Assembly (NCBI GenBank): GCA_902775355.1
Contig: CACYLY010000004.1
Location: forward strand, 1 to 56,535
Direction: 5' to 3'
Source of the DNA: Oscillospiraceae bacterium
GTDB lineage: Bacteria > Bacillota > Clostridia > Oscillospirales > Oscillospiraceae
Length of the DNA: 56,535 bases
Shown in pieces: positions 5,311-49,127 of the stretch. Made by a program: the position numbers and the translations under genes. The notes beneath the pieces were generated by a model. That model saw only the letters and a program-made list of their open reading frames with translations, did no database searches and was not told the DNA's origin. The first letter of the stretch is position 1, and every line of letters begins with the position of its first letter.

Positions 5311-6175
5311 GGCAGGCAGAATTTGAGCCCTTGAGCCTGTCATCCTGCGCGCCTCTCCCCTGTCATCCTGAGCGAGCGAAGCGAGTCGAAGGATCTTATC
5401 TCCGTAGCGCCGCGCATCACTCGGCGAAAACCGAACGAAGCGGCAGAACGTAGGATCGCCGAGCGATGCTCGGCGCTACGGGCGCTGGATGGAACGTCGG
5501 CGCGAGACGGCGGGCGCTTCATGAAGCGCCCCTACGGCATGGTGCGAGGCTGCGCGTGTAGGGGCCGGCCCCCTGGACGGCCCGGCGGGACAGCCCTGTT
5601 TTCTGAATAACAAAGGGCGAATCCGTATTCTGCGGGATGCGGGTCCGCCTGTTTTTTGTGCCGCAGCAAGTTTGGCGCGGCGGGTCGCCGAGGACGTCGA
5701 CCCCTACGGCAGGGAGGCAAGCAACCCGCGTAAGGCGCGATGCCTACATCGCGCCGTGGATCACGCATGCGGGAGCAAGGGCGGGCGACCTAAGGTCGCC
5801 CCTACGGCGCGGGACGAACGTTGGAGCGCTCTTGCCTCCCCCTTCGGGGGAGGTGTCGCCCGGCGTCTCACGCAAGCCGGGCGACGGAAGGGGTCCGCCC
5901 CCTATTCCCCAGTGTGCGCACTGGGGACTTCCCCCGGAGGGGGAAGCAAGACGCAGTGCGATGCCAAGCGCTGCGGGCGGGGGACGGGAGGTCGGTGCGA
6001 ATCGCGGGAGGGGCAAGCCCCTCCCCTACGGCGGGGACGGGACGTCGGCGCATGGCGGCGGGCGACCAAAGGTCGCCCCTACGGGCGCGGGCGGGACCTT
6101 GCGCGGATCGCCGGGCAGAGTTCATTGATCGCAGGCTTCACGCTAAAAACTGCTATGTCTATATGTCTATCATAC
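5311..6175. repeat. Large REP and palindrome array
   Basis: A gap of about 0.9 kb without genes, filled by palindromes. TCATCCTGAGCGAG repeat: about 5360-5398. GCCGAGC stems: 5404-5426 and 5457-5481. GCGCTTCATGAAGCGC: 5512-5537. GGGCCGG stem: 5558-5587. GGGTCG stem: 5682-5708. GGCGCGATG stem: 5734-5755. GGGCGACC stems: 5783-5807 and 6060-6084. GGGAGGGG stem: 6006-6031. Most end in CCTACGG or, inverted, begin with GTAG. A separate block at 5833-5955 has CTCCCCCTTCGGGGGAG, GTCGCCCGGC/GCCGGGCGAC, CCCCAGTG/CACTGGGG and CTTCCCCC/GGGGGAAG hairpins; a relative recurs at about 25738-25810. Long overlapping open frames here are by-products of GC-rich repeats. Confidence 0.8.
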
Positions 6176-18260: not shown

Positions 18261-18378
18261 TTCATCCCGCCGCGCTGTTTTTCATTTCGTACGCTTGCAC
18301 AAAGATTTCAGTATTTTTTTGTTCATGTTTTCGCGTGCAGGGAGCGAAGCAGGCGGTGCGGCGCATCACGGCGGGCAA

Positions 18379-18505
18379 CGGTCGGTCGCCCCTACGGGCA
18401 CGGACGGGCGTGGGCGCGGGTCGGCGGGCGCCCAAAGGTCGCCCCTACGGGCGCGGGATAAGCGTTGGCGCTGAACGGCGGGAGGGGCAAGTCCCTCCCG
18501 CCGTG
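18379..18505. repeat. REP cluster, three palindromes
   Basis: Two units with arms ending TCGCCCCTACGGG (about 18379-18407 and 18427-18455) and one GGGAGGGG/CCCTCCC unit (about 18477-18505). They fill most of the gap between the ABC operon promoter and the 3' end of the pullulanase gene. The rest of 18261-18540 holds nothing else recognisable. Confidence 0.7.
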
Positions 18506-30315: not shown

Positions 30316-30560
30316 GTAGGGGCTGGCGCCCTCGACAGCCCGCCCGGTTGCGTGATCCGCGGCGCGATGGCTGCATCGCGCTCTACGCGGGTTGACCGCC
30401 CTCACCGTAGGGGCGCTTCACGAAGCGCCCGCCGTCCCGCGCCAACGTCCCGTTCCCCGCCTTAGGGGAGGGGCTTGTCCCCTCCCGCGATTCGCACCGA
30501 CCTCCCGTCCCCCGCCGCCTGGTCCTTGACGCGGACAAGCCGCCCCGTAGGGCGGCTTGT
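30316..30560. repeat. REP cluster, five palindromes
   Basis: Units at 30316-30343 (GTAG foot, GGGCTG stem), 30362-30386 (GCGCGATG stem, TCTACG tail), 30405-30430 (GTAG foot, GCGCTTCACGAAGCGC), 30462-30486 (TTAG foot, GGGGAGGGG stem) and 30535-30560 (ACAAGCCGCC/GGCGGCTTGT around CCGTAG). The last may also serve as the 3' hairpin of the Etf operon, though no T tract follows on the minus strand. Confidence 0.75.
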
Positions 30561-39170: not shown

Positions 39171-39390
39171 ATTTGTAGGTTCACTCTGAATAATACCGAT
39201 CTTCTGTCCATCGGAGCGGGTTCGTATCAATATAATCCCAAATCTCACGATAATCCTTCTCGTTACGGATCACATGCTCGTAATAGGATCGCTGCCAAAT
39301 CTTCCGTTCCGGATCAAGCTGATGCTTTTTGCTGCTGTTCATTTTCAGATACCCGATCGTCTGAGCGAGGAGGGATCGTGCTGCGCGCTG

Positions 39391-39416
39391 CCGTAGGGGC
39401 GCTTCACGAAGCGCCC
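39391..39416. repeat. REP unit inside the transposase frame (1)
   Basis: CCGTAG foot followed by GCGCTTCACGAAGCGC. The same unit is found between genes at 30405-30430. It is read in frame as RALREAPLR by the transposase, in the opposite orientation to the second copy. Confidence 0.85.
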
Positions 39417-39561
39417 GATCCTCCTCGATCCGCAGTAAAAGATGGAGATGATTCGGCATAATGATGTACTTATCCACAAAAAGATTCGGAAAGCGATCCG
39501 GCAGGGCGTTAACGACATCATCTACGATTTGACCGATCTCTGTGAGACGCAGAGATTCCGC

Positions 39562-39587
39562 GGGCGCTTCATGAAGCGCCCCTACGG
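39562..39587. repeat. REP unit inside the transposase frame (2)
   Basis: GCGCTTCATGAAGCGC followed by CCTACGG, identical to the intergenic copy at 5512-5537. Read in frame as VGALHEAP by the transposase. Confidence 0.85.
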
Positions 39588-39749
39588 CGATAGACGAGAA
39601 GATACAGCGACGGTCGTGGGTGCATATCGTTACGAAGTATGCCCCCGGGCTCGAATAATCATAGTTTTCCAGCCGAACCGTCTTTCATTTTGGCAGATCT
39701 ATGTCCCAAGCCCCTGTTTTCTTTCCCATCTGCGGATTAGTTTTCAGGT

Positions 39750-42043: not shown

Positions 42044-42429
42044 CGTAGCGCCGAGCATCCCGACGCGCGGGAAGCGTGCGACGCTCCCAGCTCTGCTTGC
42101 CCGGCATGTCATCTTGAGCGAGCGAAGCGAGTCGAAAGATCTTGCCCCTCGTCAAGCTCGCCCTTATCCGGCCTGGAAGATCCTTCGACTGCGGCGCAAG
42201 CGCCTTCGCTCAGGATGACAGGGACGGACGTTCCTGCGCGGATCGGTGGGCTGTCGAGGGCGCCAGCCCCTACGGCGCAGGGACGGACGTTTGCGGATCG
42301 GCGGGAGGGGCAAGCCCCTCCCCTACGGCGGAGGACGGACATGGACGCGCGTAGGGAGCGATCCCTTGATCGCTCCGCGGATGATGCGCTGACGCGTGTT
42401 CGCGGGCGCGACCTGAAGCGCCCCTACGG
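42044..42429. repeat. Left copy of a composite direct repeat
   Basis: 386 bp, matching 43408-43772 in the same orientation. It contains a GTAG-GCCGAGC unit, the 114-bp MITE-like palindrome at 42107-42220, a GGGCTGTCGAGGGCGCCAGC unit missing from the right copy, a GGGAGGGG unit (42303-42328), a GTAGGGAGCGATC unit (42351-42376) and a GGGCGCGACCTGAAGCGCCC unit. The remainder of the gap to 42633 has two more REP units (42453-42475 and about 42511-42534). Confidence 0.8.
42107..42220. mobile_element. Palindromic MITE-like element, copy 2
   Basis: 114 bp with inverted ends TGTCATC and GATGACA, the same family as 3223-3324 and nearly identical to 43505-43618. No coding capacity. Confidence 0.7.
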
Positions 42430-42633
42430 CGCAGACGGGAACGGATGTGCGCGGGGGCAAGCCCCTCCCCTACGGGCGCGGGACAGAGCGTCGGCGCACT
42501 TCGGCGGGCCGCCGAGCAATGCTCGGCGCTACGGGCGCGGGACGGCGGGCATTGCTCGGCGTCGCCCAGCCCCTTGTACCTTGTCCGCCCGCGACGCAGG
42601 GGCGGATGAGACCCACCTGGCAGAGGAACATCA

Positions 42634-42661
42634 TTCCGAATTCCGAACTCCGAATTCCGAA
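42634..42661. repeat. Heptamer tandem repeat abutting alkD stop
   Basis: Four 7-base units TTCCGAA, TTCCGAA, CTCCGAA, TTCCGAA; the next base is the first of the TTA that is the alkD-like gene's stop codon on the minus strand. Confidence 0.8.
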
Positions 42662-43351
42662 TTACTCCCGTCCTCTTCTCAGTCCCCGCAGCAGCGTCTT
42701 TCTTTCCTCGCCGATGCGGTTGCTCTCCACCGCTTTCTGGATCGTCCTGTTGTGCGTCCAGGGATCCAGCCGCCGTTCCTTTATAAGGGGCAGGGTGCTG
42801 TCCCACTGCTTTGCCAGGGCCGTGGCGAAATACCAGGCCCGCATCATGTTTACATAATATTCTTCTGACTCGATTACGGAAACCATTTCCAGGTATTTCG
42901 GCTTGAAATCCCCGTCCAGGAAATGATTCATCAGCATCTTGATCCCGAAGCGGACGGTATAGGTCTCCCCGGAGGCAAGCCAGCTCTCCACATGCTTCAG
43001 CAGCGCCGCCCTGTGCTTGTTGAAGACGGTCGGGTTCATCTGGTCGCAAACCGCCCAGTTGTCCACAAAGGGCAGAAAGCGCTCCACCGCGGCCATGCAG
43101 GCCTCAAAATCCCGAAGCTGCTCCAGCAGGAAGGCGTGCAGGCAGTTCTCCTCATAATATGCGTGGGGCAGTTCGCCCAAAAACGCCTCCGCCTCCCCGC
43201 TCCCCCGCAGTTCCTTCGCCAGGGCCCGCAGGGCGGGGGTCCGCACCCCCAGGAACGTCCCGGCGGGAACGTTGGGGATCAGCTTCGCCGTAAAGGCGGC
43301 GAAGTCCGGCTCCGCCATGGCAATGAGACGGCTTTGTATCGTCGTGTTCAT
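42662..43351 (-). CDS. DNA alkylation repair protein (AlkD-like)
   Basis: 229 residues, HEAT-like repeat family that recognises or excises N3/N7-alkylated bases. Typical stretches are FLGVRTPALRALAKEL near 33-48, FVDNWAVCDQMNP near 94-106 and the W-D/R-x-N patterns in the C-terminal half. The start follows GAGAGGAT. It occupies the place where cdsA usually lies between uppS and dxr and is bracketed by direct repeats, so it may be an insertion. It has no operon link to its neighbours. Confidence 0.87.
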   Translation of the reverse strand: MNTTIQSRLIAMAEPDFAAFTAKLIPNVPAGTFLGVRTPALRALAKELRGSGEAEAFLGELPHAYYEENCLHAFLLEQLRDFEACMAAVERFLPFVDNWAVCDQMNPTVFNKHRAALLKHVESWLASGETYTVRFGIKMLMNHFLDGDFKPKYLEMVSVIESEEYYVNMMRAWYFATALAKQWDSTLPLIKERRLDPWTHNRTIQKAVESNRIGEERKTLLRGLRRGRE

Positions 43352-43407
43352 GTTATCCTCTCAGCATGTCGGCGCTGCTGTATGGCGATCCATGCCTGTG
43401 CTTGCCC

Positions 43408-43772
43408 CGTAGCGCCGAGCATCCCGACGCGCGGGAAGCGTGCGACGCTCCCAGCTCTGCTTGCTCGGCGTCTTCTGCAGCGGGCCGCCGAGCATTGCCC
43501 GGCATGTCATTTTGAGCGAGCGAAGCGAGTCGAAAGATCTTATCCCTCGTCAACCTCGCCCTTATCCGGCCTGGAAGATCCTTCGACTGCGGCGCAAGCG
43601 CCTTCGCTCAGGATGACAGGGACGGACGTTCCTGCGCGGATCGGCGGGAGGGGCAAGCCCCTCCCCTACGGCGGAGGACGGACATGGACGCGCGTAGGGA
43701 GTGATCCCTTGATCGCTCCGCGGATGATGCGTTGGCGCGTGATCACGGGCGCGACCTGAAGCGCCCCTACGG
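43408..43772. repeat. Right copy of a composite direct repeat
   Basis: 365 bp, the direct counterpart of 42044-42429. It has a 29-bp addition with a GCCGAGCATTGC half-palindrome and lacks one REP unit present in the left copy. It ends in the same GACCTGAAGCGCCCCTACGG block. Confidence 0.8.
43505..43618. mobile_element. Palindromic MITE-like element, copy 3
   Basis: 114 bp, ends TGTCATT and GATGACA, nearly identical to 42107-42220 and embedded in the right direct repeat. Confidence 0.7.
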
Positions 43773-43783
43773 TTCCCTGATCT

Positions 43784-43818
43784 CTGTTCACCGTTCACTG
43801 TTATCTGTTCACTGTCCT
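43784..43818. repeat. Heptamer tandem repeat near uppS 3' end
   Basis: Five 7-base units CTGTTCA, CCGTTCA, CTGTTAT, CTGTTCA, CTGTCCT, 46 bases beyond the uppS stop codon. Confidence 0.75.
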
Positions 43819-43864
43819 CACTGTCCGCGTTTCCGCGCTCGGCCGAAGCTCGCCCCTACCGGGT

Positions 43865-46838: not shown

Positions 46839-47561
46839 ATGCTCTGCAAACACGAACTTGCCTCTCTGGGGGAGCGGCTGCTGCGGCTGCTGGGTCTGCA
46901 GCCGCCGGAGGTCTATTACATCGGCGGCAGCGACACCCTGCCCGCTCCCCTCAGCCGGGAGGAAGAGGACCGGGCCATCGCGGACCTGGCCGCCGGCAGC
47001 GCCGCCGCCCGCAGCCTGCTCATTGAGCACAATCTGCGCCTGGTGGTCTTTCTGGCCAAGCGCTTCGAGAACACCGGGGTCAATCTGGAGGACCTGATCT
47101 CCATCGGCACCATCGGGCTCATCAAGGCCATCAACACCTTTCAGGCGGGCAAGAACATCAAGCTGGCCACCTACGCCTCCCGCTGCATCGAGAACGAGAT
47201 CCTGATGCACCTGCGGAAGATCAGCTCCCAGCGCAGCGAGGTGAGCTTCGACGAGCCCCTGAACACGGACTGGGACGGCAACGAACTGCTGCTGTCGGAC
47301 ATTCTGGGCACCGACGTAGACGAGGTCTCCCGCCCCCTGGAGGACGATGCGGACAAGCAGATGCTGCTGGAGTCGGTGGCGGAGCTCTCCCCCCGGGAGC
47401 AGCAGATCATCGCCCTGCGCTTCGGCCTCCCCGGCGGAAGGGAATACACGCAAAAAGAGGTGGCTGATCTGCTCGGGATCTCCCAGAGCTATATCAGCCG
47501 CCTCGAAAAGCGGATCCTGGAGCGTCTGCGAAGAGACATGCTGCGCAGGATGCAAATATGA
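46839..47561 (+). CDS. sigE: Sporulation sigma factor SigE (pro-sigma-E)
   Basis: 240 residues. N-terminal pro-sequence of about 27-30 residues ending near [11 protein letters not shown], the SpoIIGA cleavage region. Region 2 contains [14 protein letters not shown] and [16 protein letters not shown]; region 4 has [18 protein letters not shown]. Mother-cell sigma factor. RBS AAGGAGG. sigG, often next, is absent. The TGA stop is the first three bases of a heptamer array. Confidence 0.96.
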
Positions 47562-47592
47562 GATAACAGATAACAGTGAACAGTGAACAGAG
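47559..47592 (+). repeat. Heptamer repeat overlapping sigE stop
   Basis: TGAGATA, ACAGATA, ACAGTGA, ACAGTGA, ACAGAG(C). The first three bases are the sigE stop codon. The units are the inverse complement of those in the array at 47612-47744, so the two can pair. Confidence 0.75.
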
Positions 47593-47611
47593 CCATCCCC
47601 TGATTGATTCT

Positions 47612-47744
47612 CTGTTCACTGTTCGTTGTTCACTGTTCGTTGTTCACTGTTCGTTGTTCACTGTTCGTTGTTCACTGTTCGTTGTTCACTGTTCTCTGTT
47701 CGTTGTTCACTGTTCACTGTTCACTGTTCGTTGTTCACTGTTCA
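47612..47744. repeat. Heptamer tandem repeat, 19 units, overlapping MATE stop
   Basis: Nineteen exact 7-base units alternate mainly between CTGTTCA/CTGTTCG and TTGTTCA with no phase break. The last three bases (TCA, 47742-47744) are the stop codon of the MATE gene on the minus strand. The apparent open frames coding SLFVVHC repeats are by-products. Confidence 0.9.
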
Positions 47745-49127
47745 CTTCCCCACCAGGTTCACGACCCAGCGGCGGTTCCGTACCAGGATGAAGCCGATGA
47801 CGCACTTGATGACATTCAGCAGCTCCACGATCAGGTACATGGTCACGATATTCATCCGGGTCCAGTGGGAGAGCGCGAAGGCCACGGGGATGCTCACCAC
47901 CCAGACAAAGAGGCTGTCAAACACAAAGGTGATGATGGTCTTGCCCCCGGAGCGCAGGGTGAAATAGCAGCTGTTGGTATAGGAAAACAGGGGCATCATG
48001 GCCGCGTACACCAGCAGCAGCTTCTCCGCCAGGGCCTTCACCGTGTCGGTGGTGTTGTAGGCCTGGGGCACCAGGGGCGCGGTCAGGGCCATCAGCAGGC
48101 CGATGGCCACGCTGAGGGCCAGGGAGAAGGCGATGAGCTTCCGGTCCTCGTCCACGGCCCGCTCCAGCTCCCCCGCCCCCAGCAGCTGGCCGATCATGAT
48201 GGAGATGGCGTTGCCCGAGGCGATGAAGGCGCAGAAAAAGAGACTGCCCACGGTGCTGGAAATATTGAAGGCCGAGACCACCTCCAGGCCCCGCAGGGAA
48301 TAGCACTGGTTCAGCACCGTCATCCCGCCGGACCATAAAAACTCGTTGAGCAGCAGGGGCGTTCCCAGCACCAGGATCTGCCGCAGCAGCTTTCCCGGCA
48401 CCCGCAGGCTCCGGTACAGGCCGTTCACAAAGGGATTCTTCTCCCGGTGCCGGTGGGTCCAGGTGAGCACGATGCTCAGCTCCACGAAGCGGGAAAGCAC
48501 CGTGGCCATGGCGGCGCCCACCACGCCCAGAGCCGGGAAACCCAGCTTGCCGAAGATCAGGATGTAGTTGAACACCAGGTTCACCAGTACGGCGGCGATC
48601 CCCGCCCGCATGGGCAGCAGCGTCTCGCCGGTCTCCCGCAGGGTGCTGGAATAGACCTGCATCAGGGCGAAGGGCGCCGTCTGGATCAGCATCACCGCCA
48701 GGTATTCCTTCGCGTAGCCCAGGGTGGCCTCCAGATCCAGATTCTCCTCCCCCTGATGGAGGAAGAGGGAGATCAGCTTCTCCCCGAAGAGCAGGAACAC
48801 CGAGAGGCACACGCCCACGGCCAACAGCGCGAACCAGAGCTTGGTCCGCACCGTGTCCCGCAGGCCCTCCCAGTCCCCCTTGCCGTAGTACTGGGCGGTG
48901 AAAATGCCGGCCCCGGCCAGGCCGCCGAAGATGCAGAGGTTATACACGAACAGCAGCTGGTTCACGATGGCCACGCCGGACATGGGCTCGGTGCCCACCT
49001 GGCCCACCATCACGTTATCCAGAAGGCTGACGAAGTTGGTGATCAGTTGTTGGACGAGGATGGGCACCATCACGGCGAACAGCCGCCGGTAAAAGGCCCG
49101 GTCCCCGATATAATTGCGCAGACGCAT
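47742..49127 (-). CDS. MATE-family efflux transporter
   Basis: 461 residues with about 12 membrane segments in two homologous halves. Family features are VPILVQQLITNFVSLLDNVMVG at the N-terminus and PALGVVGAAMATVLSR mid-protein. Exports drugs or metabolites with Na+ or H+. ATG at 49127 follows GAGGTG; four extra upstream codons are not used. Monocistronic. Its stop codon is part of a heptamer array. Confidence 0.93.
   Translation of the reverse strand: MRLRNYIGDRAFYRRLFAVMVPILVQQLITNFVSLLDNVMVGQVGTEPMSGVAIVNQLLFVYNLCIFGGLAGAGIFTAQYYGKGDWEGLRDTVRTKLWFALLAVGVCLSVFLLFGEKLISLFLHQGEENLDLEATLGYAKEYLAVMLIQTAPFALMQVYSSTLRETGETLLPMRAGIAAVLVNLVFNYILIFGKLGFPALGVVGAAMATVLSRFVELSIVLTWTHRHREKNPFVNGLYRSLRVPGKLLRQILVLGTPLLLNEFLWSGGMTVLNQCYSLRGLEVVSAFNISSTVGSLFFCAFIASGNAISIMIGQLLGAGELERAVDEDRKLIAFSLALSVAIGLLMALTAPLVPQAYNTTDTVKALAEKLLLVYAAMMPLFSYTNSCYFTLRSGGKTIITFVFDSLFVWVVSIPVAFALSHWTRMNIVTMYLIVELLNVIKCVIGFILVRNRRWVVNLVGK

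Follow-up and report, generated by a model that had tools for sequence, protein, structure and literature searches.

The window RAYT gene and its REPs

The window, by which we mean the whole stretch of 56,535 nucleotides analysed here, is contig C4 of a 2.86-Mb draft genome of an Oscillospiraceae bacterium (92 contigs, 87.5% complete). Its minus strand contains a disabled reading frame that the original prediction had recognised as a RAYT, with an aminotransferase/decarboxylase-like gene and a site-2-protease-like gene (names from reading the translations) as neighbours (Table 1). This identification was supported by a match to NF047646 (E 5.4e-19, short of the curated family cut-off of 80 bits) and by a score of 245.8 bits against a RAYT profile, with one TGA. 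A PF01797 search of the same genome found two places and missed the window gene; NF047646 recovered it. The minus-frame translation includes ..SSIAVGALHEAPAES.. and ..IEEDRALREAPLRQ.., as well as MPNHLH and WDYIDTNP, and the tyrosine of the latter is, by analogy with other RAYTs, the presumed catalytic residue. The gene has the HUH motif, downstream tyrosine and IS200/RAYT fold of an HUH single-tyrosine (Y1) transposase, and both the family profile and the dispersed GTAG-footed REPs in its genome place it among RAYTs (TnpAREPs). Its motifs NHLH, IWQ and YIDTNP are near, not identical to, the NH[IFV]H, WQ and YIxNNP of TnpAREP subclass 2.4 (Quentin et al., 2018), which the text of PMC6006769 treats as the same as the group 4 RAYTs of Bertels et al. 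(2017). Among relatives of the gene, the consensus is NHVH, WQ and YIDNNP. The window gene also shares with this subclass the presence of REPs in frame within the gene.

Table 1. Features of the window RAYT gene and matching REPs
Feature	Position	Strand	Basis
RAYT (TnpAREP) reading frame, disabled	39181..39687	-	NF047646 match, RAYT profile, translation
REP in loop 1, GTAG foot 5' on coding strand, in frame as VGALHEAP	39562..39587	-	sequence match, relatives
MPNHLH, HUH motif, between the two REPs	39442..39459	-	read from sequence and translation
REP in loop 2, inverse, CTAC 3' on coding strand, in frame as ALREAPL	39391..39416	+	sequence match, relatives
Codon of presumed catalytic tyrosine in WDYIDTNP	39232..39234	-	assigned by analogy with RAYTs
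Copy of the window RAYT's REP outside the RAYT	5512..5537	-	sequence match
Copy of the window RAYT's REP outside the RAYT	30405..30430	+	sequence match

Two palindromes in opposite orientations had been proposed to lie within this frame, to keep it open, to have the GTAG foot and to match two palindromes elsewhere in the window, and all of this was found. The first copy is GTAGGGGCGCTTCATGAAGCGCCC (39562-39585, minus strand, 0 mismatches) and the second is GTAGGGGCGCTTCACGAAGCGCCC (39393-39416, plus strand, 1 mismatch); both have the GTAG foot of RAYT-associated REPs and are read through in frame. Of the copies outside the gene, the one at 5512-5535 has no mismatch and the one at 30407-30430 has 1. 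When up to 3 mismatches are allowed, this REP has 6 matches in the window, compared with 0 in 100 dinucleotide shuffles, and there is no copy of it within 400 nt outside the gene (L004). Genome-wide, 41 copies were found at up to 1 mismatch, including the two internal ones, and 0 with a reversed control pattern.

The suggestion that the enzyme was recently disabled is a fair one. An in-frame TGA is present at 39685-39687, followed by 167 open codons; no start codon lies upstream in the frame and none is usable for the whole protein, the first mechanical start (GTG at 39477) being too internal. A sequencing error in the draft assembly may also account for this. The best reading of the window copy is that of an inactivated member that still carries its REP pair, and its broken start region is an event separate from that pair.

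Other repeats are present in the window. Different GTAG-footed REP types are clustered side by side at 5400-6110, 18336-18471, 30316-30516 and 42245-43860, and a TTCACTGTTC-like unit of 14 nt (or half of it) forms tandem arrays at 458-560, 43773-43815 and 47561-47746, where inverted copies occur too.

Further RAYTs in this genome

The RAYT family model found eight places in this genome, seven of which are RAYTs of the window gene's kind. Three more of its RAYTs have one pair distributed over the two loops, each with a different REP, namely GCGACCCTTGCGGTCGC (L003), CCGACGCCCTCGGCGG (L006) and CCGGCGCCCTCGACGG (L009), the second copy being in each case the inverse of the first. One gene (L008) has a REP in loop 1 only. 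Two others (L005/L153 and L007/L156) have no internal REPs and are bordered by REP hairpins on both sides; the classical flanked arrangement and the internal one thus coexist in one genome. Genome-wide copies, counted for the L003 and L006 types (the L009 type was left out), numbered 25 and 31, respectively, and a type carried by no RAYT of this genome had 1 copy there, with a mismatch. Among own-genome REP copies elsewhere, 16 of 54 lie within an open frame of at least 150 codons with 40 codons on either side, a figure to be read with the knowledge that GC-rich frames are often spurious. The genome also contains an N-terminal RAYT stub of another type (L154, G000:C84, 1021-1140), which stops in its loop-1 REP, GTAGGGGAGGGCTTGCCCCTCCC. 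An intact RAYT follows immediately downstream of this stub, and its REP pair is a different one.

Occurrence of the internal inverted pair among related RAYTs

Relatives were collected in two sets. The first combined RAYTs from 61 congeneric genomes, 33 of which gave a match, with the best 80 loci from a scan of named genomes. The second comprised the best matches in 400 genomes of the same family, of which 133 gave a match, a choice by which weak and fragmentary genes are under-represented. After removal of 26 of 158 profile hits from the first set (22 without MPxHxH, 3 at edges and 1 duplicate) and of 11 hits from the second (6 duplicates and 5 without MPxHxH), 132 and 101 distinct genes were retained, respectively; own-genome loci L001-L003 and L005-L011 were also left out, as they duplicate stretches included under other loci or are of another kind. 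For each gene, the best ungapped inverted match between the DNA before and after the HUH motif was scored, with a threshold of 16.

An inverted match of at least 16 between loop 1 and loop 2 was found in 149 of the 233 distinct RAYTs (78 of 132 and 71 of 101). With one shuffle per gene, the maximum was 11 in each set and the threshold was never reached. When loop 1 and loop 2 of different genes were combined, it was reached in 59 of 1584 and 33 of 1212 comparisons, because REP types are common to several genes. The two copies within a gene are very similar (mean identity 0.968; 64 of the 149 pairs exact), and the mismatches between them are concentrated at the hairpin centre, at apical positions 14-16. 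The GTAG feet point outward in 144 pairs and inward in 1, and 4 could not be classified; that is, 144 of 149 have the layout of a REPIN, an inverted REP doublet with outward GTAG feet. The outer span is 170-247 nt (median 193). One of the 149 paired genes (L082) carries something other than a GTAG REP. Among the named loci, the pair is present in 40 of 52 from Bacillota, 1 of 28 from other named phyla and 0 of 2 without a phylum. Judged by these comparisons of sequences, the pair is a widespread and orientation-fixed feature of this RAYT clade, whose copies change together.

The alignment with related RAYTs that the original prediction had proposed revealed other palindromes at the same two loops, and the opposing expectation, that homologues would have loops of the same residues and length with no palindrome, was not borne out. 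A recent self-inflicted insertion, one of the explanations offered with it, is not the best one, given that the pair is widespread in the clade, fixed in orientation and composed of copies that change together. A further suggestion, that the loops simply tolerate such extensions, is plausible in that the structure model is least confident at loop 2 (residues 96-103 below pLDDT 50).

Tolerance of this kind is also the basis of a simpler explanation, in which abundant REPs land anywhere and only those in frame within tolerant surface loops of RAYTs survive. It is the reading closest to the 2018 paper, whose text describes REPs inserted in subclass 2.4 RAYTs (PMC6006769), and REP insertions into unrelated genes have been reported (text of PMC3733652). 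In addition to the low-confidence loop 2, it is favoured by a REP-like hairpin in a single loop (10 in loop 1 and 27 in loop 2) among the 84 genes without a pair, and by extra tandem REP units in frame in loop 2 of two genes (L046 and L123), which give repeated SGTPAPT-like peptides. The agreement of the two copies within each gene across 38 REP types, together with the single orientation of 144 of 149 pairs, argues against it, and we regard it as very improbable.

Concerted change of REP type

The internal REPs were divided into 38 coarse types at edit distance 3, and the two copies within one gene agree in type; random REPs of different types share 0.39 of the core. On a tree of 231 rows built without the loops, REP type changes at least 59 times, a rough figure since the tree is poorly resolved; an earlier tree of 130 rows, also poorly resolved, gave 26.

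To avoid dependence on the types themselves, gene pairs unselected by REP type were grouped by backbone identity. At a backbone identity of 0.65-0.80, the REPs have a nucleotide identity of 0.91-0.98, while outside them other codons are used at 0.47-0.55 of identical residues. At a backbone identity of 0.40-0.45, REP identity falls to 0.54 (including the shared foot), as between unrelated types. The conservation of the REPs while outside codons vary implies that the constraint acts on the nucleic acid and follows the RAYT clade. What is preserved is the stem positions and the GTAG feet, with the rest near synonymous saturation. Synonymous change was also counted within REP types (156 of 3518 codons, compared with 11692 of 21148); this count was abandoned as main evidence, since it is circular when types are defined by REP similarity, and was replaced by the backbone grouping.

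It could be argued that such concerted evolution has no function, i.e. that inverted copies of 27 nt about 140 nt apart are homogenised by template switching or gene conversion, and that the match to other REPs of the genome results from conversion by those REPs. The clustering of between-copy mismatches at the apical positions would fit this process, as would loop 2 of two genes (L136 and L140), an apparent hybrid in which halves of two REP types are joined (..GTGGCCGGGCCCCTAC) and the frame is shifted. However, preservation of stems and GTAG feet, with the rest near synonymous saturation, points away from it, and we consider homogenisation without function unlikely.

Internal and flanking placement of the pair

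The carried REP was found within 400 nt outside the gene in 12 of 70 and 9 of 66 testable carriers, and at loci of at least 10 kb no other copy was present in the flank sequence in 32 of 42. We then scored the flanks, 200 nt on either side, for any matched inverted pair spanning the gene, leaving out 12 genes near edges. A flanking matched pair was observed in 2 of 141 carriers of the internal pair vs 23 of 80 non-carriers (Fisher p 1.1e-9, an optimistic value because the genes are related), and in one of these 2 carriers (L198) the flanking match is something other than a GTAG REP. A relatedness-aware test had 8 usable independent pairs and lacks power (median p 0.5); these pairs fell in the expected direction 1.6 times on average and in the opposite one 0.0 times (two of 200 draws had one). 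The pattern is suggestive of a replacement of flanking by internal placement. A linked pair is not universal: 84 of 233 genes are without an internal pair, and only 23 of the 80 that were testable are flanked by one.

The loss of the flanking pair in carriers is not expected if REPs are inserted passively, and the absence of other copies from the flanks of most long loci counts against passive insertion as well. Homogenisation without function, by itself, also leaves the lack of flanking pairs in carriers unexplained.

Relationship with the REP content of genomes

For four REP types examined in 61 genomes, carrier genomes had more copies outside RAYTs than did the other genomes with RAYTs (one-sided p 0.0034, 0.00044, 0.0031 and, for T4, 0.053); most genomes used were drafts. 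The complete genome of Chakrabartyella piscis (CP092441.1, L056) has 79 copies of its carried type at up to 2 mismatches, 39 of them exact. No exact copy of that type is present in four other genomes, two of which have 13 and 30 places at 1-2 mismatches, mostly of other types. For a further type followed in 12 genomes, five carriers have 149, 56, 33, 23 and 2 copies and six others have 0; the exception, with 17 copies, is a genome only part of whose RAYTs were read. Another type, followed in a set of the same size, has 56, 56 and 25 copies in three carriers vs 0-2 in nine others.

There are exceptions in both directions. One genome (G270, one contig, 99% complete) has its two internal copies as the only ones at up to 2 mismatches. 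Both passive insertion and homogenisation without function have difficulty with this case, in which the pair persists with no other copy found. Conversely, some genomes have many copies and no matching gene was found in them: G060 (T2, 42), G049 (T4, 91), G048 (T3, 39), G027 (T3, 39) and G006 (T1, 29). G060 (79% complete) gave no RAYT match despite 42 GCGACC...GGTCGC (T2) and 14 GGCTATNAGCC REPs. Genome-wide REP copies thus follow the carried type, with exceptions, which makes the association imperfect. The idea of a genome-wide link between this RAYT clade and these palindromes has nevertheless held up, as RAYT type is associated with REP content, and the contrary expectation of no such link has failed.

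In one genome (G035, L158-L165), outward REP pairs of four types are present in 8 of 8 stretches, at 134-149 nt, the stretches having been chosen for showing pairs. Several spacers of these REPIN-like pairs look able to form a long inner hairpin.

RAYT genes broken at internal REPs

Many partial RAYTs in the genus sample start at profile positions 94-99, just past loop 2. From the 17 fragment loci viewed (L136-L152) and the own-genome stub, 13 (L137, L141-L143, L145-L152 and L154) were compared with intact genes at the DNA level; two nearly whole genes with a shifted frame (L136 and L140) and three at contig ends (L138, L139 and L144) were left out, and the count is also without L040 and the partial matches G043:C136, G046:C19 and G044:C142. 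Eight of the 13 fragments (L141, L142, L146, L147, L149, L150, L151 and L154) end in, or at most 2 nt from, an internal REP. Another (L148) starts 24 nt beyond the mapped REP, three (L137, L143 and L145) point to a REP by profile position alone (43, 94 and 95, respectively), and the break of L152 is not at an internal REP. Misassembly at repeats in the drafts could inflate the number of such breaks.

When L141 is aligned to an intact relative, the match runs to the end of the first REP and picks up again where the second one starts: L141 has lost its catalytic segment and retains a single double-footed REP. An origin of double-foot REPs by central deletion of an inverted dimer is considered in the text of PMC6006769. 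None of the profile matches in the genus covers solely the segment between the REPs.

These breaks bring up the possibility of a self-limiting replicator, a RAYT that would carry its substrate pair around its own catalytic codons, seed REP families and cap its own activity. Wherever such a gene arrived, it would introduce the founder of a new REP family, and its own enzyme, or repair at the hairpins, could excise or sever the catalytic segment; the genome with the internal pair alone (G270) might then represent the seed and L141, with its segment lost, the end. We hold this full cycle to be improbable.

A linked REP pair within the enzyme gene

Our preferred reading, which we think is probably correct, is that the window gene belongs to a RAYT group of the subclass 2.4 / group 4 kind whose cognate REP pair is internal, configured as a REPIN and kept linked to the enzyme. 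It draws on the geometry of the pair, the match of copies within genes, their joint change of type, the conservation of synonymous sites, the link to the REP content of genomes and the breakage at REPs, all of which are apparent at the level of DNA and protein sequence. One REP occupies the loop before the HUH motif, GTAG first, and its inverse the loop between the HUH motif and the tyrosine, which gives the outline of a REPIN with GTAG feet outward and a spacer coding for the catalytic motif. On the coding strand the GTAG hairpin is that of loop 1, and on the opposite strand it is that of loop 2, the same arrangement as in REPINs. We infer that linkage of an inverted REP pair is of importance to RAYT biology, that an internal pair can stand in for a flanking one and that it may act as a cis-linked substrate, which would keep enzyme and substrate matched and co-inherited, e.g. 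upon transfer of the gene to another genome. Action on the pair in single-stranded DNA, by the enzyme or through repair at hairpins, might keep the copies alike, sometimes swap their type and sometimes destroy the gene. Propagation, autoregulation and self-limitation are all candidate roles of the pair.

Autoregulation, which the original prediction had also mentioned, deserves separate attention. The REPs could pair or form two hairpins in the mRNA, or bind the RAYT, and thereby limit expression. The coding strand of an intact gene (L041) is predicted to fold so that the loops are joined by a stem of some 27-29 bp (-118.2 vs -86.0 +/- 5.1 kcal/mol for 200 shuffles, z -6.35); this is not independent evidence, because any matched inverted repeat folds so. 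Down-regulation of RAYTs by REP hairpins is discussed as a possibility in the text of PMC3733652. Limitation of expression is possible, if somewhat doubtful, and it is compatible with the linked-substrate reading rather than exclusive of it.

The arrangement bears on how RAYTs and REPs stay matched and on whether RAYTs act on a gene-linked pair. With the presumed substrate written into each gene, sequence alone may reveal specificity for dozens of types. The internal pair can also be set against flanking pairs as a naturally occurring contrast, and through the genes broken at REPs one may examine whether RAYTs attack the genes that encode them.

Comparison with known systems

REPINs, which Bertels and Rainey are said to have described in 2011, reportedly consist of two inverted REPs with a spacer. 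The internal pair resembles them in sequence layout, the level at which the likeness is known, and differs in that its spacer codes for the catalytic motif. The classical RAYT / REPtron (Nunvar 2010, PMC2817692) is similar, according to the text of that article, in its inverted cognate REP pair and in RAYT-REP coevolution; there the pair flanks the gene, whereas here it is inside.

Rickettsia palindromic elements are also palindromic repeats in frame within protein genes; as described in the text of PMC3733652, they end in CGTC and occur in unrelated genes, whereas the internal REPs have GTAG feet and are located within the gene of their presumed own enzyme. Regarding activity, cleavage of single-stranded REPs is described for TnpAREP of E. 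coli and for two more RAYTs, in which the GTAG and the hairpin are recognised; an inverse REP alone is uncleaved in the systems tested (text of PMC8266576).

The closest known system is TnpAREP subclass 2.4, as presented in the text of PMC6006769. Shared features are the HUH single-tyrosine type, motifs of the NHxH, WQ and YIxNP type, a variable HUH-Y region and REPs inserted in the gene with the frame unbroken. In that description the insertions are generally between HuH and Y, REPs flank the genes too, and the genes come from Cyanobacteria, Bacteroidetes and various phyla. In contrast, the RAYTs studied here have a second site before the HUH motif, rarely have flanking matched pairs and carry the pair mainly in Bacillota, and their two REPs are inverse copies that change together. 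In the text of PMC6006769 we found no matched inverted pair, regular pre-HUH site in subclass 2.4, concerted change or flanking exchange, and its supplementary figures may show more; the literature examined on REPs within RAYT genes yielded no other paper on a matched internal pair. Hence, relative to the text of that paper, in-frame REPs in subclass 2.4 genes were already published, and what appears to be new is the matched pair, its concerted change and the internal-or-flanking pattern.
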